Shown here: in pieces, positions 3 through 18,681 of the stretch
Layout: each line of letters begins with the position of its first letter
How positions within the stretch are numbered: position 1 is the stretch's first letter
Origin: a virus
Virus record (IMG/VR): IMGVR_UViG_3300037346_000162
Coordinates: 1 to 33,316 of that record
DNA length: 33,316 bases
Reading direction: 5' to 3' (one strand)
Position numbers and translations under genes: made by a program
Notes under the pieces: model-generated
Told to the model about the DNA's origin: nothing
What the model saw: only the letters and a program-made list of their open reading frames with translations
The model's database searches: none

Positions 3-932
3 AATGACCACGAAAATGAAGTGCGTGATCTTGAGGATGAGTATGGTGATGATGACGGTGATGACCGTGTTCATTGCCACTCGTACAAGCCGAATGCAAA
101 CTTCCTCAATGATGACGGGACTAACAGTCACTACCGTGCTGTTGATTCCAAGTCGTTGTACATGGGGTTTGAGTTGGAGACCGAGTATGTTCGCAAGAAC
201 AATCGCAATTCATCTCTTGATGCTGGTTCAAGTTTCATACTTGACACCATCAACACCGATGGTTCGGAAGATGTTGTGTACCTAAAGCAAGATGGTTCAA
301 TCACTCATGGGTTTGAGATTGTATCTCACCCCATGACATTGGGGTACGCAATGAATCACTTCAGGTGGTCAGGCATTGAGGGTCTCAAGTCGCTTGGCTA
401 CGATGCGTGGAAAGCGAGTTCATGCGGATTACACATTCACCTGTCTCGTTCTGCGTTCGTTGACGAGTATCACTTGATGCGCTTCTTCCTACTCATACTC
501 AAGAACAAGCAATCGCTTGTTCAGTTTGCAGGGCGTGAGTCAAGTTACGCAAAGTTTGACATGGACGCATTCTTCAATGCGTACCACGATTACGATACCG
601 ACAAGACAGTGCGTGGTGCCACACTTGCCACACATGCCAAGCAGTATTCACACAACGGAGACCGTTACACGGCAATCAACCTACAGAATGTCAATACCAT
701 CGAGTTGCGATTCTTTCGCCCCTCGCTGTTGTCGTCCACTGTCAAGGCTTGTTTGCAGTTCTGTGACGCTTCATTCAATTACACCAAGTCAATCACAACT
801 CAGGATGTGGTATCTCGCCAAGCAATCCAGTTTGGTTCGTTCCACTCATGGGTTCGCTCTCAGGGCAACAAGTACCGCATTCTTGACGAGCGTATCGTTG
901 AGCGTTGCGTTACTCGTGGTGAAGACGCTTGA
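3..932 (+). CDS. Amidoligase, glutamine-synthetase/GCS-like fold (5' end outside window)
   Basis: Likely ATP-dependent carboxylate-amine ligase forming amide or peptide bonds. The frame is open to the left edge, so the true start lies outside; residues here are counted from the GTG at 21. Visible superfamily motifs, in order: GFELETE (49-55) on the first metal-binding strand; a DGS...GFEIVSHP segment (91-104); CGLHIHLS (135-142); and YTAINLQN followed by TIELRFFRPS (216-235). This order of acidic strand, HxH strand and N...T-E-x-R strand is what I know from the amidoligase families related to glutamate-cysteine ligase. The N-terminus is very acidic (runs of D and E at 4-15). It is followed 84 bp later by a class II glutamine amidotransferase, a pairing known from phage and bacterial amidoligase operons. 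The substrate is unknown; wall or lipid peptides and protein tails are all possible. Fold confident, reaction inferred. Confidence 0.8.
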   Translation, partial: NDHENEVRDLEDEYGDDDGDDRVHCHSYKPNANFLNDDGTNSHYRAVDSKSLYMGFELETEYVRKNNRNSSLDAGSSFILDTINTDGSEDVVYLKQDGSITHGFEIVSHPMTLGYAMNHFRWSGIEGLKSLGYDAWKASSCGLHIHLSRSAFVDEYHLMRFFLLILKNKQSLVQFAGRESSYAKFDMDAFFNAYHDYDTDKTVRGATLATHAKQYSHNGDRYTAINLQNVNTIELRFFRPSLLSSTVKACLQFCDASFNYTKSITTQDVVSRQAIQFGSFHSWVRSQGNKYRILDERIVERCVTRGEDA

Positions 933-960
933 TAAGCTGATACACACATATCAGTTTCTA

Positions 961-980
961 ACAACAAACAAACAACAAAT
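961..980 (+). promoter_or_regulatory. A/C-rich leader (ACAAACAAA type), representative copy
   Basis: An A/C-only stretch containing ACAACAAACAAACAACAAA precedes the amidotransferase gene. Closely similar G/T-poor leaders, usually joined to an AAGGAG ribosome site, precede the genes starting at 2152 (2131-2145), 2490 (2463-2482), 3285 (3254-3277) and 4470 (4445-4463). Such sequence cannot pair with itself and would keep the ribosome site open. The role is inferred. Confidence 0.45.
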
Positions 981-983
981 AGC

Positions 984-1002
984 GTGGGGGCTATGCCCCC
1001 AC
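984..1002 (+). promoter_or_regulatory. Perfect GC-rich hairpin immediately before a ribosome site
   Basis: Arms GTGGGGGC and GCCCCCAC enclose a TAT loop, an 8-bp perfect stem. It is not followed by a T-run but by AGAAAGGA and the ATG at 1017, so it is a poor intrinsic terminator and a better candidate for an RNA-processing, stabilising or translation-control stem. Confidence 0.5.
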
Positions 1003-1016
1003 AGAAAGGACACAAT

Positions 1017-1982
1017 ATGTGTCTACTTACACTAATACCCGACTATGTCAATCCTGACCTAAGTCGTTTCAAGATTGCTGCGGAATCTAACCCAGATGGT
1101 TTCGGCTTTGCCATATCAACTGGCAAGAAGATAATCACAGCACACGGCATGAAGTTTGAGGAGGTTGCCAACAAGTTCACGGACTTGCGCACAACCGAGC
1201 AAGGTCCTGCCATATTCCACTTCCGTTGGGCAACGCATGGAACGGAGACAATTGATAACTGTCATCCATTCACTATCGGTCAAGACCGTGAGACCGTGCT
1301 TGGTCACAATGGAATCCTTCCAGTAGAAATTAAGGCTGGTGATACTCGTTCGGATACAAAGGTATTTGCAGAAGATATCTTCCCATATGTTGGTGGTATT
1401 GCTTCACTTGATGACAGTGATTACTTCATCAGGTTGGCTAACTGGGCTAAGGGTTCCAAGTTGGCTTTCCTAACTGTCAATGATGATGCTAAGTATGACT
1501 GGTACATCATCAACGAGGCAAATGGTCACTGGGACCAGGACATGTGGTGGTCTAACTACTCATACGAAGAGCGTGTTTACAAACCATCTACTTATCCTTA
1601 CGCTGGTATTTACAGCGAGGCCTGGGACTACAGCTACACATCTTTGCATAAAGATGAGGCTGTCTACACCCCAACCGACGACTACGACGATGAGGCAAGC
1701 ATCATCTTTGATGAGACATTGTCGAAACTCAATGTGTTCATGACCACAATAGATGAACATACCGATTTGCTTGAGTGCTACACATGCGCTTTTGCAGACA
1801 AGGTTGCAACAAACAGTTTGCATGCTTACTGTCCGGCGTGCGAAGCATGCTTGTTCTGCGGTGCGCACACTGACTGTGGGTGCTGGGACACGCTTGATGA
1901 GCACAACATTGACTACTACAACCCACATCATGCGTGGGTCAATCCAAACAAATACACAACAACACACCCAAGTTACTACTAG
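1017..1982 (+). CDS. Class II glutamine amidotransferase with C-terminal cysteine-rich (zinc-ribbon-like) tail
   Basis: N-terminal-nucleophile amidotransferase that should release ammonia from glutamine. I chose the ATG at 1017 over an earlier in-frame ATG at 984 because it puts Cys at position 2 (MCLLTLI), the nucleophile exposed when Met is removed, and because AAAGGA lies just upstream. Family motifs: FRWATHGTE (69-77), NCHPF (81-85), GHNGIL (96-101) and GDTRSDTKVF (108-117). The catalytic domain ends near residue 175; an acidic, tyrosine-rich linker follows to about 250. The tail holds a dense Cys cluster: C254-C257, C272-C275-C278-C281 and C287-C289, a likely zinc-ribbon pair. No synthase domain is attached, so ammonia is presumably passed to a partner, most simply the preceding amidoligase. 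Total 321 aa. Catalytic domain confident; zinc binding inferred from spacing. Confidence 0.85.
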   Translation: MCLLTLIPDYVNPDLSRFKIAAESNPDGFGFAISTGKKIITAHGMKFEEVANKFTDLRTTEQGPAIFHFRWATHGTETIDNCHPFTIGQDRETVLGHNGILPVEIKAGDTRSDTKVFAEDIFPYVGGIASLDDSDYFIRLANWAKGSKLAFLTVNDDAKYDWYIINEANGHWDQDMWWSNYSYEERVYKPSTYPYAGIYSEAWDYSYTSLHKDEAVYTPTDDYDDEASIIFDETLSKLNVFMTTIDEHTDLLECYTCAFADKVATNSLHAYCPACEACLFCGAHTDCGCWDTLDEHNIDYYNPHHAWVNPNKYTTTHPSYY

Positions 1983-2489: not shown

Positions 2490-3008
2490 ATGACATCAAT
2501 ACAACTACGTACAGAGTCAATAGACATACCGGTTACATTTACATCGGAGCAGTTACACAGCCTGTTTGACCAATCACTCACAGAATTGATTGACGGTCGT
2601 GTTGCTCAGGCAATTGTTGACCAAGCACCAGACACATTAGCGATTACAGATAGTTTGTGTGCCAACACTCGGTTCAATCGCAACATGCGAGAAGCACTGA
2701 TGGAACACATTGACTATCATGAAATCAGAACTACTGTTCTTGACAGTCTGTCCTATTCGGAGATTGTTGCACACATAGAGGATTCTTCACCTATGTACAC
2801 AAACGACAATCTTGTCAGGGGACTTACACGCTCAAGTCGTTTTCAGACCCTTGTTCGAGAGTCTGTTCGTGGTATACTCAATACCACAGATATAAACGAA
2901 AAAATAGATGCAATAGTTCAGGCAAGAACTGCAAACTTGGCAAATGAAATTGCCGAGAAAGTTCTAGCCATCATCGGTAACCGACTAGCAGGAGGTATAG
3001 ATGTATAA
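2490..3008 (+). CDS. Hypothetical protein, 172 aa
   Basis: Not recognised. Start supported by AAAAGGAGATAGCAA directly before the ATG. The sequence opens with a short beta-rich stretch (TSIQLRTESIDIPVTFTSEQ), after which it looks almost wholly helical, with regularly spaced Leu/Ile and Asp residues and segments such as SYSEIVAHIEDSS and NEKIDAIVQARTANLANEI. That suggests a helical bundle or oligomerising protein. One cysteine, no membrane segment. It overlaps the WhiB start by 8 bp, and AGGAGGT near its 3' end is the WhiB ribosome site. Confidence 0.75.
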   Translation: MTSIQLRTESIDIPVTFTSEQLHSLFDQSLTELIDGRVAQAIVDQAPDTLAITDSLCANTRFNRNMREALMEHIDYHEIRTTVLDSLSYSEIVAHIEDSSPMYTNDNLVRGLTRSSRFQTLVRESVRGILNTTDINEKIDAIVQARTANLANEIAEKVLAIIGNRLAGGIDV

Positions 3009-3288
3009 GGAAGCACCTTTCAGTATCTACACACCAACATTCTTCAAGAATGCATTGTGTAAGGGGGCACCACAATCGTGGTTCTTTCCTGAGTTCAGTG
3101 GCAACCATAGGGCAATGCGTAATGCAAAGCAAATGTGTAGCACCTGTTCAGTATCAACACAGTGTTTGGAGTACGGCAAGAGAACAGGCTCTAGCGGTAT
3201 ATGGGGAGGGTTAACACTCTCCGAAGGAAGAAATAGAAAAAGAGTTAGTAAGAAAACAAACCAACAACAAAAAAAGGAATCAAAATGA
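3001..3288 (+). CDS. whiB: WhiB-family (Wbl) iron-sulfur transcription regulator
   Basis: A 95-aa Wbl protein. Family hallmarks: four cysteines at 20, 46, 49 and 55 (C...C-x2-C-x5-C) for a [4Fe-4S] cluster, the turn GIWGG at 66-70, and a basic C-terminus (RNRKRVSKK) that in this family contacts DNA. Wbl proteins act by binding the principal sigma factor of actinobacterial RNA polymerase; phage copies can compete with or mimic host regulators. Start ATG with AGGAGGT 5-6 nt upstream, overlapping the previous gene by 8 bp; the stop overlaps the next gene as ATGA. Position inside the early operon suggests control of host or phage early/middle promoters. Assignment firm; targets unknown. Confidence 0.93.
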   Translation: MYKEAPFSIYTPTFFKNALCKGAPQSWFFPEFSGNHRAMRNAKQMCSTCSVSTQCLEYGKRTGSSGIWGGLTLSEGRNRKRVSKKTNQQQKKESK

Positions 3289-3761
3289 AATATGACACAA
3301 TCAAAGCAGTTGATGCACACATCACAAAACAAGGATGGACAACAAACTCATTCAGTGCACCAAAAGCAACACTCTATGGAATCGATTCAATCGGTGACTT
3401 GGAGCCAATAGTGGACATCATAGACTCACAAGGAGATGTGTACGAACTATTGGAAGATGTTGAGAATGCATCAAAACTCACTACGTACAGTGGCTTCGCC
3501 GTGTCAACATGCGGATGGGCTGCACCACTCAAAGAAAATGGTGAAGAAAATGATGTAGCACCATCAAAGCACCCTGAGCGCAAAAGGGTTCGACTCCTGA
3601 CTCTGTGCAAAGGTATGAAATTGGAATTACTAATACAGTTTGAGGGTGAAGATGATTTTTCCTTTGATGACCCTGTTGGGGGTTCATTGGCAGTAGCCAT
3701 GAAACAAATGTGGGCAATATCACGAGTAATGAAGAACATAAAGGAGAAAGCAAGTGAATAA
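3285..3761 (+). CDS. Hypothetical protein, 158 aa
   Basis: Not recognised. Translationally coupled to WhiB by an ATGA overlap, with AAAAAGGAATCAAA before the ATG. Alpha/beta protein: the first half holds an acidic stretch (IVDIIDSQGDVYELLEDVEN), the middle has GFAVSTCGWAAPL followed by a charged loop, and the C-terminus is a predicted amphipathic helix (SLAVAMKQMWAISRVMKNI). No catalytic motif or membrane segment found. Co-transcription with WhiB is the only functional hint. Confidence 0.8.
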   Translation: MKYDTIKAVDAHITKQGWTTNSFSAPKATLYGIDSIGDLEPIVDIIDSQGDVYELLEDVENASKLTTYSGFAVSTCGWAAPLKENGEENDVAPSKHPERKRVRLLTLCKGMKLELLIQFEGEDDFSFDDPVGGSLAVAMKQMWAISRVMKNIKEKASE

Positions 3762-3981
3762 TAAATTGGAACCAACCCTAGAAATAACACTAACGCTCTC
3801 AGAACTGAGGGCAGTAGTGAAGTCACTATCCATCGGCGTAGACCAACTGGCTAAAAAAATCCAGCGTCTTGGCGATGGTCGCAGGGCGGACTCAACACAC
3901 AATGAGTTCACCGAACTTCTATCTGCAAAGCAAGAGATGGAAGATGTCATGTCAGCCGCACTACAAGGAGATAAAATTTGA
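3754..3981 (+). CDS. Small helical hypothetical protein, 75 aa
   Basis: GTG start with AAGGAG 7 nt upstream; overlaps the previous gene by 8 bp. The product is acidic and helix-rich with heptad-like Leu spacing (ITLTLSELRAVVKSLSIGVDQ, then a basic hinge and FTELLSAKQEMEDVMSA), consistent with a short coiled coil. It ends with a TGA that overlaps the TTG start of the transglycosylase, so the two are likely coupled. No known family recognised. Confidence 0.7.
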   Translation: MNNKLEPTLEITLTLSELRAVVKSLSIGVDQLAKKIQRLGDGRRADSTHNEFTELLSAKQEMEDVMSAALQGDKI

Positions 3982-4364
3982 TAGCGAAACTAGCAATCTC
4001 ACTTATTCTGTTTACGGGGGGCTACCAGCCCCCCGTTTCAGCTCCCCACACCGCTTTGTGTCCGCAGTATTGGCAGACAGCAGTAGGCCAGGGGTTCAAC
4101 ATAATGCAACTAGAAAAACTAGATGCAATTATGTGGCGAGAAAGCAGATGCCTAACGATGAGTTTCAATCCCAAAGACCCGATGGGTGGTTCTAGGGGAT
4201 TGATGCAAATCAACGGGTTCTGGACTGACTGGCTTCGCTCTAGAGGCATCCTAAGCCACGCTGAGGACCTTTTTAAGCCCGAAGTGAACCTGAGAGCCTC
4301 ATTGGCAATTCACAACTACTCACACGCCAAAAATAAGAATGGGTGGCATCCGTGGAGAATGTAG
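3978..4364 (+). CDS. Secreted lytic transglycosylase / lysozyme-like (SLT) enzyme
   Basis: Peptidoglycan-cleaving enzyme of the lysozyme-like superfamily. Start TTG at 3978 with AAGGAG at 3965-3970. Residues 1-22 form a short signal-like segment (MIAKLAISLILFTGG, then small residues to about A22), so it appears to be exported. The SLT core follows: catalytic Glu55 in WRESR, GGSRGLMQIN (70-79), aromatic Trp82 and Trp85, and NLRASLAIHN (104-113) ending in GWHPWRM. Total 128 aa, a minimal SLT domain. Two Cys (28, 58) could form a disulfide outside the cell. It lies in the early + arm rather than the lysis or tail modules, so a role in remodelling host wall during infection is possible. A second lytic enzyme lies at 9554-10078. 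Confidence 0.85.
   Translation: MIAKLAISLILFTGGYQPPVSAPHTALCPQYWQTAVGQGFNIMQLEKLDAIMWRESRCLTMSFNPKDPMGGSRGLMQINGFWTDWLRSRGILSHAEDLFKPEVNLRASLAIHNYSHAKNKNGWHPWRM
4014..4036 (+). promoter_or_regulatory. Perfect 10-bp hairpin inside the signal-peptide coding region
   Basis: Arms ACGGGGGGCT (4014-4023) and AGCCCCCCGT (4027-4036) enclose an ACC loop. It lies 36 nt into the transglycosylase gene and is followed only by TTTCAG. The stem is strong enough to slow ribosomes or polymerase at the end of the export signal. It resembles the stems at 984-1002 and 4405-4432. Confidence 0.5.
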
Positions 4365-5770: not shown

Positions 5771-6786
5771 TGAGACTAACCGCAGAGCAGATTTCTGCGG
5801 GCTGGGAATCGGTGGGGCGACCACAAGTCGCTCCACCTTCCGAGTATCGGATGTACTCACCACTCTCTGAGGCTGCTGACTCTTTCGTAAGATGGGCTCA
5901 GTCACCTCAAGAGCGAGTGCATTTAGGTATTGCTCGCATTGACGCAGAGATGCGTGGTATCGCCGCAGGCGAAGTAGCAATGATGTTGGGCTTTGCGCAT
6001 GGTGGTAAGACACTCTTACTCCTACACGCATTGCGTCACAACCGTGACAAACACATTGCTATGTTCATTCCTGACGAGCCACGACAACTCGTATTAACAA
6101 AACTCACCTGCATGCATCATCGTATTGATGCACGAGAACTGGAAGCACGAGTAGCCGCCGATGACAAAGATGCCATCGAGTTGCTACGCAGAACAGCCGA
6201 GGAAGATTTCCCAAACCTTGCCGTGTTTGACCAGCCACTAACTTCATCCGACATGGAACGTGCCTATAACGAGGTATGCGATGTGTGGGGTCAAGCACCT
6301 GAACTTGTAGTCGTTGACTATTTGGATTTGGTAGAAGCAGGAGAGACTGTGCCCGACAAGGCAAACTTCATCAAATCATTCGGGCGTAGACACGATGTTC
6401 CAATGTTGGTTCTACACCAAACATCACGCACCGCAGGTGCGGATGGAAAGAAGATGACGATGAGTTCAGGATCGTATGGCGGTGAACAACAAGCAACACA
6501 AATCATTGGTGTTCGTCGCAAAAAGTACGAGATTGCTGCAGAGATTCACGAACTCACGCAGAAGCTTGACCGCTCTCACTCAGAGCGAGGACAAGACAGA
6601 TTGGACTTCTTGCGCCATGAACTTCGTGTTCATGAGTACACGGTCACAATCAATCTGTTGAAGAACAAGAGACCAGCAGGACAACTTGTGGATGACATCG
6701 ACTTTGAGTTGGATGTTGCCACTGGTCGTCTAACAGACCTAAGCGGTGCCTTGCCAGACCAATACCACCAGGAGTCTGCTTTCTAA
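5770..6786 (+). CDS. DnaB-type replicative helicase core (RecA-like ATPase)
   Basis: Hexameric-helicase-type ATPase, 338 aa. Walker A is GFAHGGKT (74-81); Walker B is LVVVDYLDL (179-187) with Asp183; HQTSR (216-220) matches the sensor/H4 region; KNKRP (298-302) matches the arginine-finger/H4 end of the DnaB family. About 60 residues precede the ATPase core, so the full DnaB N-terminal primase-interaction domain is absent. A charged insertion (250-290) lies between H4 and the finger. Coupled upstream (TAATG) and downstream (TAATG at 6784-6788) to the primase gene. It should unwind the phage replication fork together with that primase. Confidence 0.88.
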   Translation: MRLTAEQISAGWESVGRPQVAPPSEYRMYSPLSEAADSFVRWAQSPQERVHLGIARIDAEMRGIAAGEVAMMLGFAHGGKTLLLLHALRHNRDKHIAMFIPDEPRQLVLTKLTCMHHRIDARELEARVAADDKDAIELLRRTAEEDFPNLAVFDQPLTSSDMERAYNEVCDVWGQAPELVVVDYLDLVEAGETVPDKANFIKSFGRRHDVPMLVLHQTSRTAGADGKKMTMSSGSYGGEQQATQIIGVRRKKYEIAAEIHELTQKLDRSHSERGQDRLDFLRHELRVHEYTVTINLLKNKRPAGQLVDDIDFELDVATGRLTDLSGALPDQYHQESAF

Positions 6787-7682
6787 TGAACGATGCAATA
6801 GAAACATTCATGGATTTATTCCAAGGTAGAACTGATGCATACGGAAGTTGGGAAGGAGGCTGTGTTCGTAAAACATTGTCGTATGACAACTTTGCTAGAC
6901 ACCTTTACGGAGAGGAACTTATCGGGGTGTATCCACTCCTCGATAACTCCACTGTAATGTGGGGGTGTTCGGACATTGATGTTGATGACATTGACTCAGC
7001 ACGAAACCTGCAGATGTCTCTACACACCAAGGGCATTCCATCGTTCGTGGAGCGAACGGTCAAGGGTTTCCATGTGTGGGTGTTTGCAACTGAGTGGGTG
7101 CCAGCACCAGTTATGCGCAGAGCGTTTTTGTCTGCACATGAGGCGATTGGTTTACCACCCAAGGAAGTAAACCCCAAGCAGGAAGAAGCAGTAGGTCTAG
7201 GCAACTATGTCAGGCTTCCGTATCCGAATGGTGTGAACTCAGAGCCTGAGGTGCGTTACATCATGACCCATGATGACGCACCAATGAAGTTTGACTCATT
7301 CCTAAAGATTGTGTCAGCACAAAGGGTCACCGCAGAGATGCTTAGACCACTAGCAGAGAAGTACAGGGTTAGACAAAGGGCAACACTTGAATTGACTTCG
7401 GTATCGGCGTCGGTTCAGGAAGCTCTCGATTCCACGAATGGTTACATCGCCAACATATGGCGCAATGGTCCGTTTGAGAATCGTGACCGCTCAAACACTC
7501 TTTGTAAAATGGTGCACTTGATGCACGACTCTGGTGTTCCAATGAACTACGCTTACATCATCTTGAAAGATGCCGACAGACGATGGGGTAAGTTTCACCT
7601 CAGAGTTGATTGCGTTGAGCAACTGGTGAAGATAGTGGAAGACATTTACGGAACCGACACGACGCAAGGATTTAGAGCATGA
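6786..7682 (+). CDS. Archaeo-eukaryotic-type primase (AEP / Prim-Pol-like)
   Basis: Likely replication primase, 298 aa. The first strand of the catalytic site reads WGCSDIDVDD (59-68), giving the DxD metal pair Asp63/Asp65; VKGFHVWVF (92-100) gives the sxH-type motif with His96; and NPKQ...GLGNYVRLPYPNG (129-149) is the third conserved block. I associate this combination with AEP primases of the kind found in phages and TOTE-type conflict systems. The C-terminal ~130 residues look helical (KMVHLMHDSGVPMNYAYII) and may bind template or helicase. It is coupled to both the helicase and the RusA gene, supporting a primosome. Whether it also extends primers as a polymerase cannot be told here. Confidence 0.8.
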   Translation: MNDAIETFMDLFQGRTDAYGSWEGGCVRKTLSYDNFARHLYGEELIGVYPLLDNSTVMWGCSDIDVDDIDSARNLQMSLHTKGIPSFVERTVKGFHVWVFATEWVPAPVMRRAFLSAHEAIGLPPKEVNPKQEEAVGLGNYVRLPYPNGVNSEPEVRYIMTHDDAPMKFDSFLKIVSAQRVTAEMLRPLAEKYRVRQRATLELTSVSASVQEALDSTNGYIANIWRNGPFENRDRSNTLCKMVHLMHDSGVPMNYAYIILKDADRRWGKFHLRVDCVEQLVKIVEDIYGTDTTQGFRA

Positions 7683-10078: not shown

Positions 10079-13000
10079 TATTCTCCCTCAAGTGTTCTTT
10101 GCTTTGATACGACCTTTTGCGCAAGTGTCTTGCGTCTAGCAAGTTCGCTAAGCATGTTTCTTTCAGTGTTCTGTTTTACTGGAAGACCAATATAACCATA
10201 CAATGCGTTCAACCTTTGCGCACCAGTAACATCGCTCTTAGATGGGACAAGCCTTTCGGCTTGACCCAGTGTAGGAATCAAACTTGTCAAAGCGTAATAA
10301 GCCTTTTCGCTCACAAACTTATTGCCCTCTGAGTTTGTTTGACCATATCCAAGCATTTGCAATAACGGCTGAATGACTTTAGAACTACCACCACCAACCT
10401 GCACTGGATTGTCAGAAAATGATTGTCCAGTAAAAGACTTCCTGTTCATCATTACTTCAAGTGGAACTCTAAGCAATGGGTTAACGTTTCCAAAGTACTT
10501 TGATGGGTTTACAAACTCTTCAGCCTGTTGCTGAAGTCTGTTGAATCCCAAGTCTGGTGTTGCGTACAAGTCTGTTCCAAATGGAAGCTTAAAAGCACCA
10601 GCCTTAACCATCCATTCAGGAACAATGTCTCCCTCGTTTTTGTCTTCGGTCATGTTTCGCTTAATCGAGTTATAGATTTGATATGACCTTGGGTTTGTCC
10701 ACATGTTCTGTAATTGCATTGGGAAGTTCCTAGATGTCCACATCCAAAACGGAACAATCTGTCGCATTACCGAGTCAACAGTTGAGATGTCTTGGTAGTC
10801 AATTAGATATCGCTTTACTCTTGCTGATGCCTGCTGTGGTGTCATGCCGCTAGCCACACCATCGTATGCAAGAACAAATCGTGAATGCTGTTCAATCCAG
10901 CGACCCTTCTCTTTCATAAACTTTGTACCGAACGGTGTGACCTCACTCAAGAAGTCATTAATCATACCGCCACCGCTTGCAGCGGCTGCCTCAACAGCAC
11001 CACGAACAACTTCTTGCTCAGCGGATGGTAATGTCTTAATCCACTGGTTGACATCGAGATTACTCTTTGATGCCTCAATCCACTGCCTGCTGAAATCAAG
11101 ACCTTTCATCATTGTTGCTGGGTTCCCTCCAGCGGCAAACAACATAAATGCGTTAGATATTGCGTTGCGAACATGGAAGCCAGGACTCAAAGTTGCATAC
11201 GCTTTGAAGAAGCGTGTGTAACGACCAACATACTTCTGAAATTGTTCTGCAATAACAGGGTCACCAACTCTGTGAACGTTCTGGAAGATGTCTGCAACTT
11301 CTTTTCTCACACCTATTGTCGGGTAGAACTTGCTTAACTCAACAAAGCCATCATCAAAAGAAACAAGCATTTGCACCTGACTTGGTGCAAATGGTTGACC
11401 CGGCATACCAGCAATCTGTTGTGGTGTTAGTCCCTTCATCCAAGAAGCAGCAAGTGCTTCCTGCTGGGCCACATCGAGACCAATGTTTGCCTCTAGGTAA
11501 AGAGACTTCTGTTCAAGATACTTTGCAACCACACGCCTAAGTGCAAGTGGAGTTTCTTTACCACCGCTTAGCTGATTAAGCATGTAGCGACCCTCTTCAA
11601 TAAATGACTCTGCTTCAGCCATCCAAGAGTTATCTAAGTTTGCCTTTATTGCTTTCTTGGTTTTATCAGATTCAAACAATGGCCGTATATCTTTCTTGGT
11701 TTTGTCAAACGCCTTTGTTAAATTCTTAACACGAAGAATATTAAGTTCAATCTGTGAAATATCTTTTGGACCCCAAGCATCAAAGTCAAGAGATGTTTCG
11801 TATGCAGTCTGTGCGTCAGCAACAGCCTGCTCAATCTTTGCAAGTTTGGCATCTGCTTTACCAATTTTTTTGAATGCAGATTTTAGATTCTTTCCATCAA
11901 ACAATTCATCTTGTGCCCTAACAAGTTCAAGGCCAAGTCGAATTTGAGCAACTGCCAAATCCTTTGAAAGATTGGTTTCAATATCTAAACCTTGTTTCAA
12001 GAACAAGTCAGACAGTGCATTAAACTCTGTATACTCCTGATACTTTCCAGACCACTCAAGCTTTATTATTGAATTACGAAGTTCGGTCATCTTCGCTTCG
12101 CCGGCTGCAACAACAGCAGAACGACCGGCAACAACCTGTGAACGAAGTTCCTCGTTTACCCTAAAGTTCCTTGGTCCAAGAGCTGGTCTTGAATCTCTGA
12201 CAACAGCAACCTCTTCTTTAACACGACGATTGAAAAGATTTTCCAAGTCAGAACTCTTAGCAGAAACTTGTTTCTGTCTAATGAGTTTCTGAATACGCTT
12301 ATTTCCTCTAATGAAGTTTTTAATCTCTTGTTCAGTTCTTCCCTTGAACTGACCAGGCTCAAATCCAAGTTCAGTAATAATCTTTCTACGTATGTTTCTT
12401 TCTGTTATCCCGTCAATACCTTCGTAGGTGCTTGCTGGAGGTCTTAGTCCAGCAGATGTTTTTTCTGCTTGAGCAGCAATCTGCAAAGAGGTTTTTCCAG
12501 TTGGTTTTACACTACCCTGAACAAGTAATTCATTAATTTGATTTTGTAGATATTCTATTTCGTCAGATGTTTCCATTACCCGTCTGTCGGAAATACCAAT
12601 TTGTTCTTCAAGTTCTGAAATTCTAGATGCTCGAAGTCTTTCTCCTTGAGATTTTAAGTCCATTGCTTCTTTGTAGATGTTTTGTGCTTCCAAAGATGTG
12701 TACTTTGGAATCTTTTCACCAGTTCGTGCAGCTTCACGAATTTGCTCATCAGACAATTTTGCTGCACGCTCACCAAATGGTGCAGTTGTTTTTGTTCTTG
12801 CGTATTTTGTTGCAACAGATTGACGAGCACTTGCATCTGGTTGGCGCATCATTTCTTGAATCATGGATTCAGAAATATTTGCCTTTTCTGCTTCAACCTT
12901 TTGAAGATGATAAAACTCTGGAGAAGATTCAAAACGCTTTCTTAGACCGTCTTTTCTTACAGAAACAACAGTGTCTGTTTCAAATATTCTAAGCAACCTG

Positions 13001-16000
13001 TTGTCCTTAATATAATACATTGCATCCGGTGAAGAATCTGGCCCTTGGTCAGTCAGTGACTTCATTATTCTTTCTAATTCTTTTTTTGAACCAGCTTTTG
13101 ATGAAGAGACACGGTTATAAAGTTCATCAAACTTTTCATATGCATCAGCCTTGAAGTCATCAAGATTAAATTCACCGTTAAGACCACGTTCAAAAGCAGC
13201 AATCTTTTGGTCAAACTCTCTAACCTTTCTACCTTGCTTAAATGCAACAGCACGTTCTTTTCTTAGTATTTCAATTTGATTTGAAATGTATGAACGAACA
13301 TTACCCAATGCATATTCATCAGTTGGTGTAAGTTTGTAAATACCGTCATTCCACAAAGAAAGCCACTCTAATGGCGTAAACAAACCAGATGCTCTTGCGG
13401 AAGATGCTGAATAGTTTGCAAGTTCCATTGCAAACTCCTGCTCACCAAGATGTCTAACTGCCCTGGCATTCATCGGCTGTGACTGCAACTTCTTTAATCT
13501 GTTTATTGATGGCTGTATCTTTAGCTTTGCAGCTTTTGCTGCAGAGCGTATGTTCGCTCTACGAGCATTTAGTTCAACCAACCTATCGCTCGTCTGACTC
13601 CTGATTGCAGAAAGTGTAGGTTCATTTGGCGGAACAATGTTTGGGTCTTCATACAAAGATTTTAATGCCGCTTTTTTTCCTGCATTAATTTGTCTACGTT
13701 CAAGAGTGCTGGCAACACCAATTAACTCTGCCGCTTTTTCATCCAATGAGTCTGCCAAAGCAGACGAACCATTCAGGTCGGCATTGTATGCCCACGAACC
13801 TGAAATCCATCTACCACTAAAGTCGTAAGAACCAGCACGACCAGCCAAAAGTGCCTCTGCGCTCACAGCAGGGTCATCACTAAGAACAGCAAGACTGTTT
13901 AGTCTTTGGGTTACTCTGTTCTTTGTTTTTCCAAAATAGGATTGCGATACTGGAATTTCCTTAAAGGTTCTTTTTGGTCGTTCCATTACTTTGCCACCAG
14001 ACTTGATTCCAACAGGTTGGTCTGGGTCTATAGATGTTTTTGCACCACCAAGCATCTCTGAAAAGAAGTCATCAACAGAACGATTGCCACCGTTGATTGC
14101 ATCTGAAACAATTGCTGGGAAGCCGTAGTGCTCTCCCATTCCAACAACTCCCTTTAACCCAACAGATTTAGACGGAACTGCTGCAACTCGTTCAGAACGT
14201 TTTGCTGCAGCCTGCTGAACGGTACGAGCCCTTTCGATATCGCTTATTATATTATCGTAACGCTTTCTAATGTTTTTAACCTTTGAAGACCTTTGCATCA
14301 ACTTGTTTAATTCACCAGAAGAGCCAGTTGCACCAGAAGTAAAAGAATCCAACTCTGGAGCCATTGAACCAATTCGCTGAGACAAAACATCACCAAGTTC
14401 TTGTCCAGAAACCGATCCAGAAACCGATTGTCTTGGTTCTGTTGTGGCAAGATTTGCTACACGCAACTTCTCATTGTATACACCTTCTGCAACATTGAGA
14501 AATTCTTTTCTTGATACAGTTTGTTCTCTAGTAGCAACAAAAGGTCCACCAGAAGTTTCTTGAATCCTAATTCCATCAAAGTAACTTATAATTTCTTCTA
14601 TGGCAAACTCGTATTCTTTTTTAGCCTTCAACCTTGCAGCTTTTAAATCTGCTTCGATAGAAATCTGCTTTTTTCCTTTTGATGCCAGTTTATTTTTTGA
14701 AACTCTTATGTCTTCTTTTCCTTCAATAAAGTTAAGTAACTTTTGAAAGTTTCCCTGATAAGAATCAATAACACCACCTTGTTGATACGTAGAAGATGAT
14801 GAAATATTCATACCCTGCAACTCAGCGTAATCAATTGGATTTCCCAGTGTGTCAAACACTGGACCACTAGGAGTTGTGACCGGATGAGCGCTCCTGGTTA
14901 GACCTCTTGAGTATTCTTGATATACACCAAGTTCTTTTGCAATCTGTAATGCATCTTCAATTAATTGTTCAGAGCGTTGGTCGCTATAAAACTGTCGTGT
15001 TGTTCTTGCGCCACGAGCCTTGCCCCAGATTGCTTCAATCTCTGGGAAAAATTCTCTAATCAAACGTTGTCGGTCCGAAGCAATTCGATGTGCTTCAAGT
15101 TCAGCAGCATTGGCTGTTGAACTTGGTGGGTCAATCTCTCTAAACAGTTTACTTAGTTCCTGTTTTAATGATATTGACTTGCTGTCTGATAAATCAACAA
15201 CAGATTTAATCTCCCTCATAAGTGTTTCTGCTTCTGTAAACCTAGAAAGAAATTTTCCCAATCCAACTTTTTCATCTGCTGTAACCCTTGAAAGAATTGT
15301 TTTATACATTTGAGGGGTGACCTCAAATCCGCTTAACGACAATAACTCAGCAGTTCTGCCAACGAGTATGCTCGTCTGTCTGTGAACGTAGTATTCAGAA
15401 ACTGCGTCAGCAAGACGCAAGTTTTGCTCAAGTATATTTCCAGTTTGACCAATTCTGTCAACATAATTTTTTTCAGGTTTTGGAAGAGATTTTCCAATTG
15501 ATTTCATTTCCTCAATTAATTTATTTTGCTTTGTTTCAATTTCTGATAAAACAGCGTTGTCAATACTGTAGTGAGACCATCTCTGAGTTGTTGGTAAGTC
15601 ATACATTGCTGTTATTGCTTTTGCATTGTCATCAATTTCCTGCTTTAATGAAATATATCTTTTTGTTCTTGCATCTGCAGAAGCACGAGCAATATCTTTT
15701 GGACCAGCTGGTTTTTCCTTGGTTCCAATCTTTACACCAGTTCTTGTCACTTCTGCCCTAAGAGATTCGACACGAGCAACTGTGTCCGCTTCTTCCATCA
15801 TTGCAATTAAATTTTCGTATCGAGCACGAGTTGGTGCATCGTTAATTAGGTCTATTGCAAAGTCTCTTCCAGCATTAGATGCAATTTTGTTGTCACGTGC
15901 AATTAACCATAGTGCAGTTTGACGGAGTTCTTCTTGGTTCTGACCAAGAGTAACTCCGTTGTAAATCCTGTTTTTAATTCCACGAACAAAAGTTCCATCT

Positions 16001-18681
16001 TTATCTGTATAGTCTTCTAGAAATATTTTAGACAACCTTCTTGGAGACATTGTTGCAGAGTCTCCAGAGTTTGCTATTTTTACAATTCTTGAAAACTCAG
16101 CAAACCTTTCACCGTCTTTGAAAATGTTTGTCATAAATGTTTCTGTAAGTCCACCACGACCAGTTGAACTTCTAACCGAACCAGGAATCAAACCAAGCCT
16201 AGATTTTGGGTCAGTAGCAATTGTAATGAGTCTGTCAAAAAGATTATCTCCAGTAGTGACCATTCCGTCAATGTTGCTACCAAGTATCAACTCGACTGTG
16301 TCCGCCATCTGGTCGGCATGAGCCAAAGATGAATCGTAACTGTTCATCTTTTGCGAAAGAGTTTTAACTCTTCGCTCAAGCATGTTTAGTGTTGAGTTGA
16401 TTGTTCGTTCTTTTCCTTCAAACAAAACAGTTCCAACCTCGTTGGCATTCCTTGGACCACGAACGTTTCTAACCTCAATACCTGATATCAAATCTTGAAT
16501 TGTCGAAATAGTTTTCAACAATTCATTATCAACAGACTTAGATTCCAAAACAAGATTATCAATCACAACGTTTCTATCAACAAACATTTCATTGAATGCG
16601 TCAACTGCAGCCTGTCTTTCAGACCTAGCAACGACAAGTTTTTCAACTTGTTTACGCAAATTATTTACTGTATCTTCAATTGGTTTTGTTTGATTAGCAA
16701 CAGCTGTTAAGTTTTCAAACATGTCTGGAAGTCTTCCAACAGTTCCTTTTCCGCTTGGTGTTAATACTGCAAACTTTTCCAATTCTTGTTGAACATTATT
16801 AATGGCTTCCGTTAAAGCAACTCTAGTTTTTTCACCAGTTGAAACAACATTTTTCATTTTAGATTTAACAGCTTTGTCTACAACATCCAAATAATTGTCA
16901 GTTACTTCTGCGCCAATAACTCCACGTTGAAATACATTAAGTTCAATTCCTTTTTGCATTGAGTGAGCCATACCAATTTGACTTGAGTAATGGTCTCCAT
17001 ACTTTTTCAATACAGACATAACATCTGTTTCAAAAAAGTTTTCAGTCATTCCTTCAACAACAGGAACACCATTTACAATCTTTGGATTCTTTGCAAGATA
17101 GTTAAGTCTGTCAACACCCTTGTCAATATCAGACTGAGTTAGTTCGTGACCAAACCACTCACTCTTAACCTTCAATTGACGTGAACGAAAACTTCCAGCA
17201 GGGTCTGTTGGGTCATACTTCAGGTACTGTCTAATTTGCTCACCACGAGCATTGACATCTTCGGCAAGCCTTTCGGCTGCCTCTGTTCTTACGTGTGGAA
17301 AGAAATCCTTTTGCTGACCAAGAACAAAGTTCGGTTCAACCATTCTGATTGAGTTTTCTACATCTGTGTGTAGTTGTTTCCAAAACGGAACATACTTGTC
17401 GTAGGCAAGTTGTTCTGCTGGTGTCATTGGTCGTGGCCAGTTTGGAGTTCCATCAGCAGCCACTGCTGGTGTGTCCAAGAACTTATAAATATCTGGACCA
17501 GCGTTAACAACATCTGGGTCCCCCATCATTCGCTGTACATTTTTTGCGTAAACATCTGCTGCCATGTTTGTGTTTGCACGCTCAGCAAAGTGCATTGCTT
17601 CTGTTTGAACAAGTAGCGATGCCTTCTCTGCACTGATGCTTGGGTCTCCACGCCTTAGAGCAGCACGAGAAGCCTTGAGCGACTTGTTTGCTGCAGTTCC
17701 CCTAGGTGTAATTGCTTCCTGTATTCGAGCGGCACCAGGAACATTCTTAAGAACACCAAGTCTTGCTCCAACAAGACCAGACTCAAGCATGTTTGCAATT
17801 GGTCCGCTGAATGGAACTTTAACCCTAGAGCCTAGATAGTAAATACCATTCTCAGATAGACCAATTCTCTTGGCGAACTTAACTCCCTCATCTCCGTATC
17901 CAGCGTCAAGCCTGCGGAACGCACGCTTGCCATCCCTTGCCACTGCTTGAACAAGTGCGTCACTTCCGCCCATTCTTTTGGTAAGACCAGCAAGCGCAGT
18001 AGCACCTTCACGACCAGCAACATTCTTTACACCACCAAGTGCAGCCCTTGTTGTAAGCGGCTTGCCAAACGCATCAAAAGCACCAGCAACCACAGCTTTC
18101 TTAACAACAGTTGAACCAAGCGTTGCGTATGTAAGAGGGTCTAAAGCAACGTCACCAACAAACCCAATTACACGACCAAGAGCTCCCTCCATTGGGAATG
18201 CAGTTCCAAATCCGTATGTTGTATCTGATGTCTGATTAAACCAGTCACCAAATGAAGCCTTAGTGTTTTTGTCGGTGTCAAGAATATCTAAAAGTTCACG
18301 AACACCAGAAATAACTCCACGACGTGGAATATCAATAATGCTCAAAGCACCAAGTGCTGTTTTTGTAATTGGGTTATTAAGAACAGCAGAACCAACCGAC
18401 CCAAGTGCACCAGGCTGTTCAGTTGCTCCAGAACGAATTTCTTGAAGCCTTTCAGCAAGTGTTGGAAACTCTGTTGACTTGTTCTTTGTGTAACTGGTTA
18501 GTTTTGACTGTGCTTTTCTTACATCTTTAGATAATCCAGATTGTGTAGTTGTTGTTGCAAGTCGTTCGGCAAGTGTGGGTTGTTGAGCAAATGCGGCTCT
18601 ACCCGGCAGGGTTGGCCGCACACTCTGTTGTTGTCCAGATAGTTGTATTAGCTTCTTGAGGATTTCTTGTTCTCCAGCCAC
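10078..18681 (-). CDS. Giant internal virion protein, 2867 aa
   Basis: The largest gene of the window, at the position where T7-like phages carry the ejected core protein gp16, but about twice that protein's length. GTG start at 18681. Residues 1-90 are polar and carry PTLAERL twice (35-41, 73-79). A second block with small hydrophobic segments (GRVIGFVGDVALDPLTYATL, 169-188) follows. The middle (about 600-2300) is mostly long charged helices with coiled-coil character (for example QVEKLVVARSERQAAVDAFN). The last ~450 residues form a different domain with SPGFHVRNAISNAFMLFAAG, then PFWMWTSRNFPMQLQNMW, as I recall from giant structural/polyvalent proteins of other phages. No SLT, protease or other enzyme motif was found. 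I see no cysteine in the whole chain. It probably sits in the capsid core and helps DNA entry; this is inference from order and size. Confidence 0.8.
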   Translation of the reverse strand: MAGEQEILKKLIQLSGQQQSVRPTLPGRAAFAQQPTLAERLATTTTQSGLSKDVRKAQSKLTSYTKNKSTEFPTLAERLQEIRSGATEQPGALGSVGSAVLNNPITKTALGALSIIDIPRRGVISGVRELLDILDTDKNTKASFGDWFNQTSDTTYGFGTAFPMEGALGRVIGFVGDVALDPLTYATLGSTVVKKAVVAGAFDAFGKPLTTRAALGGVKNVAGREGATALAGLTKRMGGSDALVQAVARDGKRAFRRLDAGYGDEGVKFAKRIGLSENGIYYLGSRVKVPFSGPIANMLESGLVGARLGVLKNVPGAARIQEAITPRGTAANKSLKASRAALRRGDPSISAEKASLLVQTEAMHFAERANTNMAADVYAKNVQRMMGDPDVVNAGPDIYKFLDTPAVAADGTPNWPRPMTPAEQLAYDKYVPFWKQLHTDVENSIRMVEPNFVLGQQKDFFPHVRTEAAERLAEDVNARGEQIRQYLKYDPTDPAGSFRSRQLKVKSEWFGHELTQSDIDKGVDRLNYLAKNPKIVNGVPVVEGMTENFFETDVMSVLKKYGDHYSSQIGMAHSMQKGIELNVFQRGVIGAEVTDNYLDVVDKAVKSKMKNVVSTGEKTRVALTEAINNVQQELEKFAVLTPSGKGTVGRLPDMFENLTAVANQTKPIEDTVNNLRKQVEKLVVARSERQAAVDAFNEMFVDRNVVIDNLVLESKSVDNELLKTISTIQDLISGIEVRNVRGPRNANEVGTVLFEGKERTINSTLNMLERRVKTLSQKMNSYDSSLAHADQMADTVELILGSNIDGMVTTGDNLFDRLITIATDPKSRLGLIPGSVRSSTGRGGLTETFMTNIFKDGERFAEFSRIVKIANSGDSATMSPRRLSKIFLEDYTDKDGTFVRGIKNRIYNGVTLGQNQEELRQTALWLIARDNKIASNAGRDFAIDLINDAPTRARYENLIAMMEEADTVARVESLRAEVTRTGVKIGTKEKPAGPKDIARASADARTKRYISLKQEIDDNAKAITAMYDLPTTQRWSHYSIDNAVLSEIETKQNKLIEEMKSIGKSLPKPEKNYVDRIGQTGNILEQNLRLADAVSEYYVHRQTSILVGRTAELLSLSGFEVTPQMYKTILSRVTADEKVGLGKFLSRFTEAETLMREIKSVVDLSDSKSISLKQELSKLFREIDPPSSTANAAELEAHRIASDRQRLIREFFPEIEAIWGKARGARTTRQFYSDQRSEQLIEDALQIAKELGVYQEYSRGLTRSAHPVTTPSGPVFDTLGNPIDYAELQGMNISSSSTYQQGGVIDSYQGNFQKLLNFIEGKEDIRVSKNKLASKGKKQISIEADLKAARLKAKKEYEFAIEEIISYFDGIRIQETSGGPFVATREQTVSRKEFLNVAEGVYNEKLRVANLATTEPRQSVSGSVSGQELGDVLSQRIGSMAPELDSFTSGATGSSGELNKLMQRSSKVKNIRKRYDNIISDIERARTVQQAAAKRSERVAAVPSKSVGLKGVVGMGEHYGFPAIVSDAINGGNRSVDDFFSEMLGGAKTSIDPDQPVGIKSGGKVMERPKRTFKEIPVSQSYFGKTKNRVTQRLNSLAVLSDDPAVSAEALLAGRAGSYDFSGRWISGSWAYNADLNGSSALADSLDEKAAELIGVASTLERRQINAGKKAALKSLYEDPNIVPPNEPTLSAIRSQTSDRLVELNARRANIRSAAKAAKLKIQPSINRLKKLQSQPMNARAVRHLGEQEFAMELANYSASSARASGLFTPLEWLSLWNDGIYKLTPTDEYALGNVRSYISNQIEILRKERAVAFKQGRKVREFDQKIAAFERGLNGEFNLDDFKADAYEKFDELYNRVSSSKAGSKKELERIMKSLTDQGPDSSPDAMYYIKDNRLLRIFETDTVVSVRKDGLRKRFESSPEFYHLQKVEAEKANISESMIQEMMRQPDASARQSVATKYARTKTTAPFGERAAKLSDEQIREAARTGEKIPKYTSLEAQNIYKEAMDLKSQGERLRASRISELEEQIGISDRRVMETSDEIEYLQNQINELLVQGSVKPTGKTSLQIAAQAEKTSAGLRPPASTYEGIDGITERNIRRKIITELGFEPGQFKGRTEQEIKNFIRGNKRIQKLIRQKQVSAKSSDLENLFNRRVKEEVAVVRDSRPALGPRNFRVNEELRSQVVAGRSAVVAAGEAKMTELRNSIIKLEWSGKYQEYTEFNALSDLFLKQGLDIETNLSKDLAVAQIRLGLELVRAQDELFDGKNLKSAFKKIGKADAKLAKIEQAVADAQTAYETSLDFDAWGPKDISQIELNILRVKNLTKAFDKTKKDIRPLFESDKTKKAIKANLDNSWMAEAESFIEEGRYMLNQLSGGKETPLALRRVVAKYLEQKSLYLEANIGLDVAQQEALAASWMKGLTPQQIAGMPGQPFAPSQVQMLVSFDDGFVELSKFYPTIGVRKEVADIFQNVHRVGDPVIAEQFQKYVGRYTRFFKAYATLSPGFHVRNAISNAFMLFAAGGNPATMMKGLDFSRQWIEASKSNLDVNQWIKTLPSAEQEVVRGAVEAAAASGGGMINDFLSEVTPFGTKFMKEKGRWIEQHSRFVLAYDGVASGMTPQQASARVKRYLIDYQDISTVDSVMRQIVPFWMWTSRNFPMQLQNMWTNPRSYQIYNSIKRNMTEDKNEGDIVPEWMVKAGAFKLPFGTDLYATPDLGFNRLQQQAEEFVNPSKYFGNVNPLLRVPLEVMMNRKSFTGQSFSDNPVQVGGGSSKVIQPLLQMLGYGQTNSEGNKFVSEKAYYALTSLIPTLGQAERLVPSKSDVTGAQRLNALYGYIGLPVKQNTERNMLSELARRKTLAQKVVSKQRTLEGE
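18445..18579 (-). repeat. Duplicated PTLAERL motif in the giant protein's N-terminus
   Basis: The heptapeptide PTLAERL is encoded at 18559-18579 and again at 18445-18465 (residues 35-41 and 73-79), separated by a basic, Thr/Lys-rich spacer. It may be a repeated docking motif for a capsid-core partner or scaffold. Confidence 0.5.

Follow-up and report, generated by a model that had tools for sequence, protein, structure and literature searches.

A Two-Gene Amidoligase–Amidotransferase Pair with Conserved Cysteine Domains in Environmental Phages

The left end of the viral contig analyzed here encodes an amidoligase followed by a stand-alone class II glutamine amidotransferase (GAT), and we consider it fairly probable (about 0.7) that the two proteins together form an amide synthetase that depends on glutamine and ATP. 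A two-part machine that moves glutamine nitrogen had been proposed in a first-pass annotation, and the proposal gains support because the catalytic motifs are invariant, the predicted folds are as expected and the adjacency of the two genes is essentially obligatory. The gene pair and a proposed role in wall modification or superinfection exclusion are already known. In the open literature that was searched, three features appear to be undescribed: the eight-cysteine tail of the GAT, the cysteine finger of the ligase, and the reduction to two genes seen across many environmental phages. This statement is provisional, since Iyer 2009 and Mageeney 2012 lay outside the comparison.

Results

The analyzed stretch, referred to in the following as the window, is the whole 33,316-bp IMG/VR virus contig, and its left end is the end of the record. 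Both open reading frames were found on the plus strand, at 3–932 and 1017–1982. The carrier is a virus of bacteria, and its host is probably actinobacterial, as suggested by a WhiB match (E = 7.4e-13) in the window.

The amidoligase

The frame at 3–932 is open at the start of the contig, and the N-terminus of the protein is therefore missing. Roughly 40 residues are lost from the window copy, a segment that carries a cysteine finger in relatives. It matched PF12224 (Amidoligase_2) with 30.3 bits, above the cut-off of 22 (E = 4.9e-7), as well as PHROG 16683 (E = 2.6e-30), and 64 of 67 relatives matched PF12224 at E ≤ 0.01. When the 67 sequences were aligned, the GxExE, GFEIV and GLHIH motifs, an Asn and the TxELRF positions were invariant or nearly so; the invariant residues were G94, E96, E98, E146, H185, H187, R262, N267, E275 and R277, in the numbering of the full-length relative L005. 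In the window, the amidoligase motifs lie at 165–185 (GFELETE), 285–299 (KQDGS), 309–332 (GFEIVSHP), 423–440 (CGLHIH), 663–689 (RYTAINLQN) and 696–716 (TIELRFF).

An AlphaFold model was built on L005, which is about 71% identical to the window copy, with a pLDDT of 88.7. Its Foldseek matches in the PDB were GS, YbdK, plant GCL and the depupylase Dop, with E-values between 5e-5 and 1e-3. The TM-scores were modest (0.33–0.42), and all matches with E below about 0.03 belonged to the GS/GCS superfamily. The first-pass annotation had described an amidoligase-like protein at this edge and had named the lack of a GS/GCS-like fold as grounds for giving up its proposal; instead, the profile match lies above the cut-off and the predicted structure resembles GS, YbdK and GCL. 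Taken on profile, motifs and predicted structure, the protein is a member of Amidoligase_2 with a GS/GCS-type fold.

The glutamine amidotransferase

The GAT most plausibly starts at ATG 1017, rather than at GTG 984. The ATG is preceded by AGAAAGGA, and this start yields a protein beginning M-C-L-L, i.e., with an exposed Cys2. The protein carries the motifs FHFRWATHG, NCHPF and GHNG, and its closest curated model was GlmS (TIGR01135, E = 1.8e-8). Against PF13230 it scored 21.9 bits, 1.1 below the cut-off of 23, and 66 of 68 relatives matched this profile at E ≤ 0.01. Residues C2, R70, N98, G99 and D113 were invariant in the 68 aligned GATs and H74 was at least 90% conserved; the catalytic residue set is that of GlmS.

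In the structural model, residues 1–183, comprising the catalytic domain, had a pLDDT of about 97, followed by a low-confidence linker at about 194–220 and then by an ordered stretch of ~75 residues with eight cysteines. The fold matches were the GlmS, PurF and EgtC glutaminases, the best being the GlmS glutaminase 1xff (E = 4e-7). No synthase domain was found in 1017–1982. On motifs, closest curated model and modeled fold, the protein is a class II (Ntn, Cys2) glutaminase-type amidotransferase, in agreement with the earlier description of a stand-alone Ntn enzyme (Cys2, WATHG, NCHPF, GHNG).

Cysteine-rich domains on both proteins

The eight-cysteine tail that had been reported for the GAT is present and conserved in relatives. 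It forms a C-terminal domain, residues about 222–300 (1680–1916, plus strand), that is predicted to be ordered and is a putative two-zinc module, with cysteines at C254, C257, C272, C275, C278, C281, C287 and C289. The pattern C-x2-C-x10-18-C-x2-C-x2-C-x2-C-x4-8-C-x-C occurred in 161 of 162 intact viral GATs, many of them from overlapping or closely related loci; the scan patterns used to collect the loci excluded the tail. In the unselected alignment of 68 GATs, seven of the eight cysteines were invariant and C287 was at least 90% conserved, and all eight were invariant in a diverse subset of 21 sequences picked among tails that fit the pattern. This conservation argues that the tail is no chance cluster. 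The tail was also found in gp106 of mycobacteriophage Marvin and in a Nocardia locus, and was absent from the OM43 phage MEP402, from ctgrD200 and from clostridial GATs.

The tail had been called an unrecognized fusion. Searches against Pfam and PDB zinc domains gave weak partial matches to rubredoxin/zinc-ribbon knuckles, none of them convincing, and its assignment to a known zinc domain was rejected. The distribution among viral sequences indicates that the tail is general in its family and no one-off fusion. The spacing of the cysteines resembles that of RING-type domains, a likeness of spacing alone.

N-terminal CxxC fingers are present in most full-length amidoligases; the closest relatives have a single CxxC...C unit, others at least six CxxC. 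Bacterial amidoligases carry LIM-like and double-zinc-ribbon-like domains (PF00412, E = 1.1e-4). From the cysteine patterns, we infer that both the GAT tail and the ligase finger would bind zinc.

Adjacency of the two genes

Using either the amidoligase or the GAT as the sole seed, scans of viral contigs gave 178 viral loci. The amidoligase and the GAT stood side by side and in the same order in 177 of these, with a median gap of 13 nt; the exception, L139, ends inside the amidoligase at the contig end. The possibility raised beforehand that the genes might never be neighbors in relatives thus failed. Among bacterial genomes, mostly Clostridia, the pair was adjacent in 52 of 80 loci, and about one third of the bacterial amidoligase loci were without an adjoining GAT.

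The clostridial and LUZ24 GATs are of a different lineage from the window-type GATs. Either amidoligases have therefore acquired class II GAT partners on more than one occasion, or one GAT has replaced another. Recurrent pairing with quite different class II GATs is what a dependence of the amidoligase on a GAT would predict, and it provides the best comparative argument for a joint function. A mirror-tree comparison of the two genes was uninformative: their correlation (r = 0.86) did not exceed that with other phage genes.

Some relatives (L038 at 3134–3940, also L030, L033, L043 and L047) have a second, shorter amidoligase upstream, which keeps the catalytic motifs and is without a zinc finger or a GAT of its own. 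The bacterial pairs are repeatedly found beside serine recombinases or integrases (L204, L219, L201, L205, L256 and others), which suggests that these pairs are cargo of mobile elements; 45 of the 80 bacterial loci have a recombinase-like gene family only a few genes away. In Pseudonocardia sp. TRM90224 contig36 (L183), an amidoligase domain lies inside a frame that is open across the whole 12.7-kb locus (>4,223 aa), possibly a giant multidomain protein.

The stretch between the two genes (933–1016, plus strand) contains two hairpins and a leader. The first hairpin overlaps or directly follows the amidoligase stop in the window, L029, L106, L115, L133 and others. It is followed by a CAA/ACA-rich unstructured leader. 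The second hairpin, of the form GTGGGGGC-loop-GCCCCCAC, stands immediately before the ribosome-binding site in the window, where it is GTGGGGGCTATGCCCCCAC (about 984–1002), and in L115 and L133. Together, the hairpins and leader may control the relative translation of amidoligase and GAT.

Gene neighborhood

Neighborhood counts were made from 96 non-redundant viral groups. The recurrent downstream families were WhiB (43 groups), a nuclease (35), a DnaB helicase (32) and an SLT-like lysozyme (30). In the window, the WhiB-like regulator lies at 3001–3285, the SLT-like (lytic-transglycosylase-like) lysozyme at 3978–4361, and an archaeo-eukaryotic (TOTE-type) primase domain, next to a DnaB helicase, at 6786–7679. 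A 2,867-aa protein is encoded on the minus strand at 10081–18681, beside structural genes, and had no Pfam match. No PADLOC match to known anti-phage defense was found.

The first-pass annotation had suggested that genes further to the left, for example an ATP-grasp enzyme, might complete a pathway. The record ends at that point, and none of the upstream genes in the 96 groups was comparably conserved, the only frequent families being many genes away on the opposite strand. Further pathway enzymes were also not detected in relatives. A COOH-NH2 ligase (PF14395) was found in none of 25 related records, the window record, itself a fragment, lying outside this search; the same search does detect LUZ24 and tf. 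A gamma-glutamyl cyclotransferase (PF06094) was found in none of 26 records, with LUZ24 and tf positive. The search for a RimK-type ATP-grasp gave none in 26 records, but found the control tf weakly and missed LUZ24; a search with the PF13535 ATP-grasp profile was also negative. These records are linear contigs, possibly incomplete. With neither COOH-NH2 ligase nor cyclotransferase in its relatives, the window pair looks like a minimal two-gene version.

Comparison with known systems

The pair is carried by LUZ24-like, phiEco32-like, OM43 and Marvin phages. Marvin gp105/gp106 (JF704100; 19 Mycobacterium phage records) have the same order, amidoligase then GAT, and are 36% and 39% identical to the window pair. 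Marvin gp106 has the same eight-cysteine tail and gp105 has N-terminal cysteines, and the pair is annotated merely as "glutamine amidotransferase domain protein" or hypothetical. Marvin is a 65-kb Mycobacterium phage, whereas the genome type here is ~40 kb.

In LUZ24, as in the window, a PF12224 amidoligase (gp18) is the immediate upstream neighbor of a class II GAT (gp19), and profile alignments of the LUZ24-type with the window-type proteins gave E = 3e-6 and 1e-5. The LUZ24-type GAT differs in having 510 aa and another cysteine end, and the LUZ24-type amidoligase is without the N-terminal finger. Moreover, the "peptidoglycan modification" cassette of LUZ24, tf, phiEco32 and RIO-1 adds a COOH-NH2 ligase, a RimK-type ATP-grasp and a gamma-glutamyl cyclotransferase. 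The OM43 phages MEP401/MEP402 and ctgrD200 have the same adjacent pair (PMC10580990), with a GAT that is without the eight-cysteine tail. Clostridial loci (e.g., L204, L219) share the gene order, and the N-terminus of their amidoligase bears a strong cysteine domain (LIM/double zinc ribbon), but their tail-less GAT is of the GATase_6 type, another lineage, and recombinases lie nearby. In GlmS/PurF, GatD–MurT and LtsA/AsnB, glutaminase chemistry likewise feeds a synthetase; the window GAT, in contrast, is without a fused synthase, and its partner is a GS/GCS-fold ligase instead of a Mur ligase or an asparagine synthetase.

Discussion

In the proposed amide synthetase, the GAT would hydrolyze glutamine through its N-terminal Cys2, as expected from its family, and release ammonia. 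The amidoligase would use ATP to convert a carboxylate into an acyl phosphate, like glutamine synthetase and glutamate-cysteine ligase do; the ammonia would presumably be transferred and attack the acyl phosphate to form an amide. The zinc-type domains at the C-terminus of the GAT and the N-terminus of the amidoligase would most likely dock the subunits or hold the acceptor. Our leading guess for this acceptor, held tentatively, is a cytoplasmic peptidoglycan precursor peptide; a host protein or a small acid are alternative guesses. Points that speak against the amide-synthetase reading are the modest TM-scores, the GAT score just short of the PF13230 cut-off, the bacterial amidoligase loci with no adjoining GAT, the second amidoligases of some relatives and the undistinguished mirror-tree correlation. 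No biochemistry or tested function for amidoligase–GAT pairs was found in the open literature.

A specific version of the amide-synthetase reading is that the D-isoglutamate or diaminopimelate carboxyl of a peptidoglycan precursor peptide is amidated, changing lysis or blocking superinfection. The actinobacterial enzymes for diaminopimelate amidation, LtsA/AsnB, also use a class II GAT, and a lytic-transglycosylase-like gene lies nearby in the window and in 30 of 96 relatives. Wall peptides had been the example given in the first-pass annotation, and such a target and a superinfection role are long-standing guesses: PMC10580990, PMC5498523 and PMC11318856 propose modification of the wall or exclusion of superinfecting phages, with reference to Iyer 2009 and other work. 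The first two give this proposal (Iyer 2009/Hardies 2013) for cassettes of the phiEco32 and RIO-1 type, which contain both enzymes. However, neither a wall-binding domain nor an export signal was seen, the zinc domains are left unexplained, and little about the target can be read from the clostridial copies near recombinases; we regard this version as plausible but more probably wrong than right. Alternatively, the pair may modify a host protein or a nucleic-acid-associated factor, the zinc domains recognizing a macromolecule and the ligase amidating or amino-acylating its side chains. Both partners have conserved zinc-type domains, including the LIM-like and double-zinc-ribbon-like domains of bacterial amidoligases, and the protein-modifying Dop, with the same fold, was among the structure matches. 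Yet the GS/GCS fold is broad and zinc domains can be purely structural, and we think this reading unlikely.

It appears quite unlikely that the pair has an auxiliary metabolic role, whether by producing a small metabolite rich in nitrogen or by aiding nitrogen recycling, as suggested for Phage-ZRK32 and Marvin (PMC10945688, PMC10580990), as just two genes are conserved and no further pathway genes were detected in the relatives tested. A role in DNA modification (Gat-QueC type) was dropped, with no QueC-like gene among the scanned window and relative genes, which were part of the ORFs. Enzymes with the GAT fold can act as amide hydrolases, and EgtC was among the fold matches (E about 2e-4), so that the GAT might be an EgtC-like hydrolase that donates no ammonia, the pair making and breaking an isopeptide bond. 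We consider this very unlikely: the matches to the GlmS glutaminase fold were much stronger, R-x-x-T-H-G and H-N-G, the motifs of the glutamine site, show little or no variation, and EgtC is not known to have a neighboring ligase of the amidoligase type.

Returning to the two-protein amide synthetase, one form of it, which we put forward as a doubtful though specific idea, would be guided by zinc: the unclassified eight-cysteine module of the GAT and the finger of the ligase would bind one another, or else a macromolecular acceptor, delivering ammonia to a specific host target, in a system distinct from the larger wall cassettes.

Amidoligase–GAT pairs are scattered through phages and through clostridial loci near recombinases. 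The family found here is the simplest form, two genes that are always together, and is therefore the easiest to express and test, and the strictly conserved cysteine domains offer a way into the question of how the two enzymes come together or select a target.
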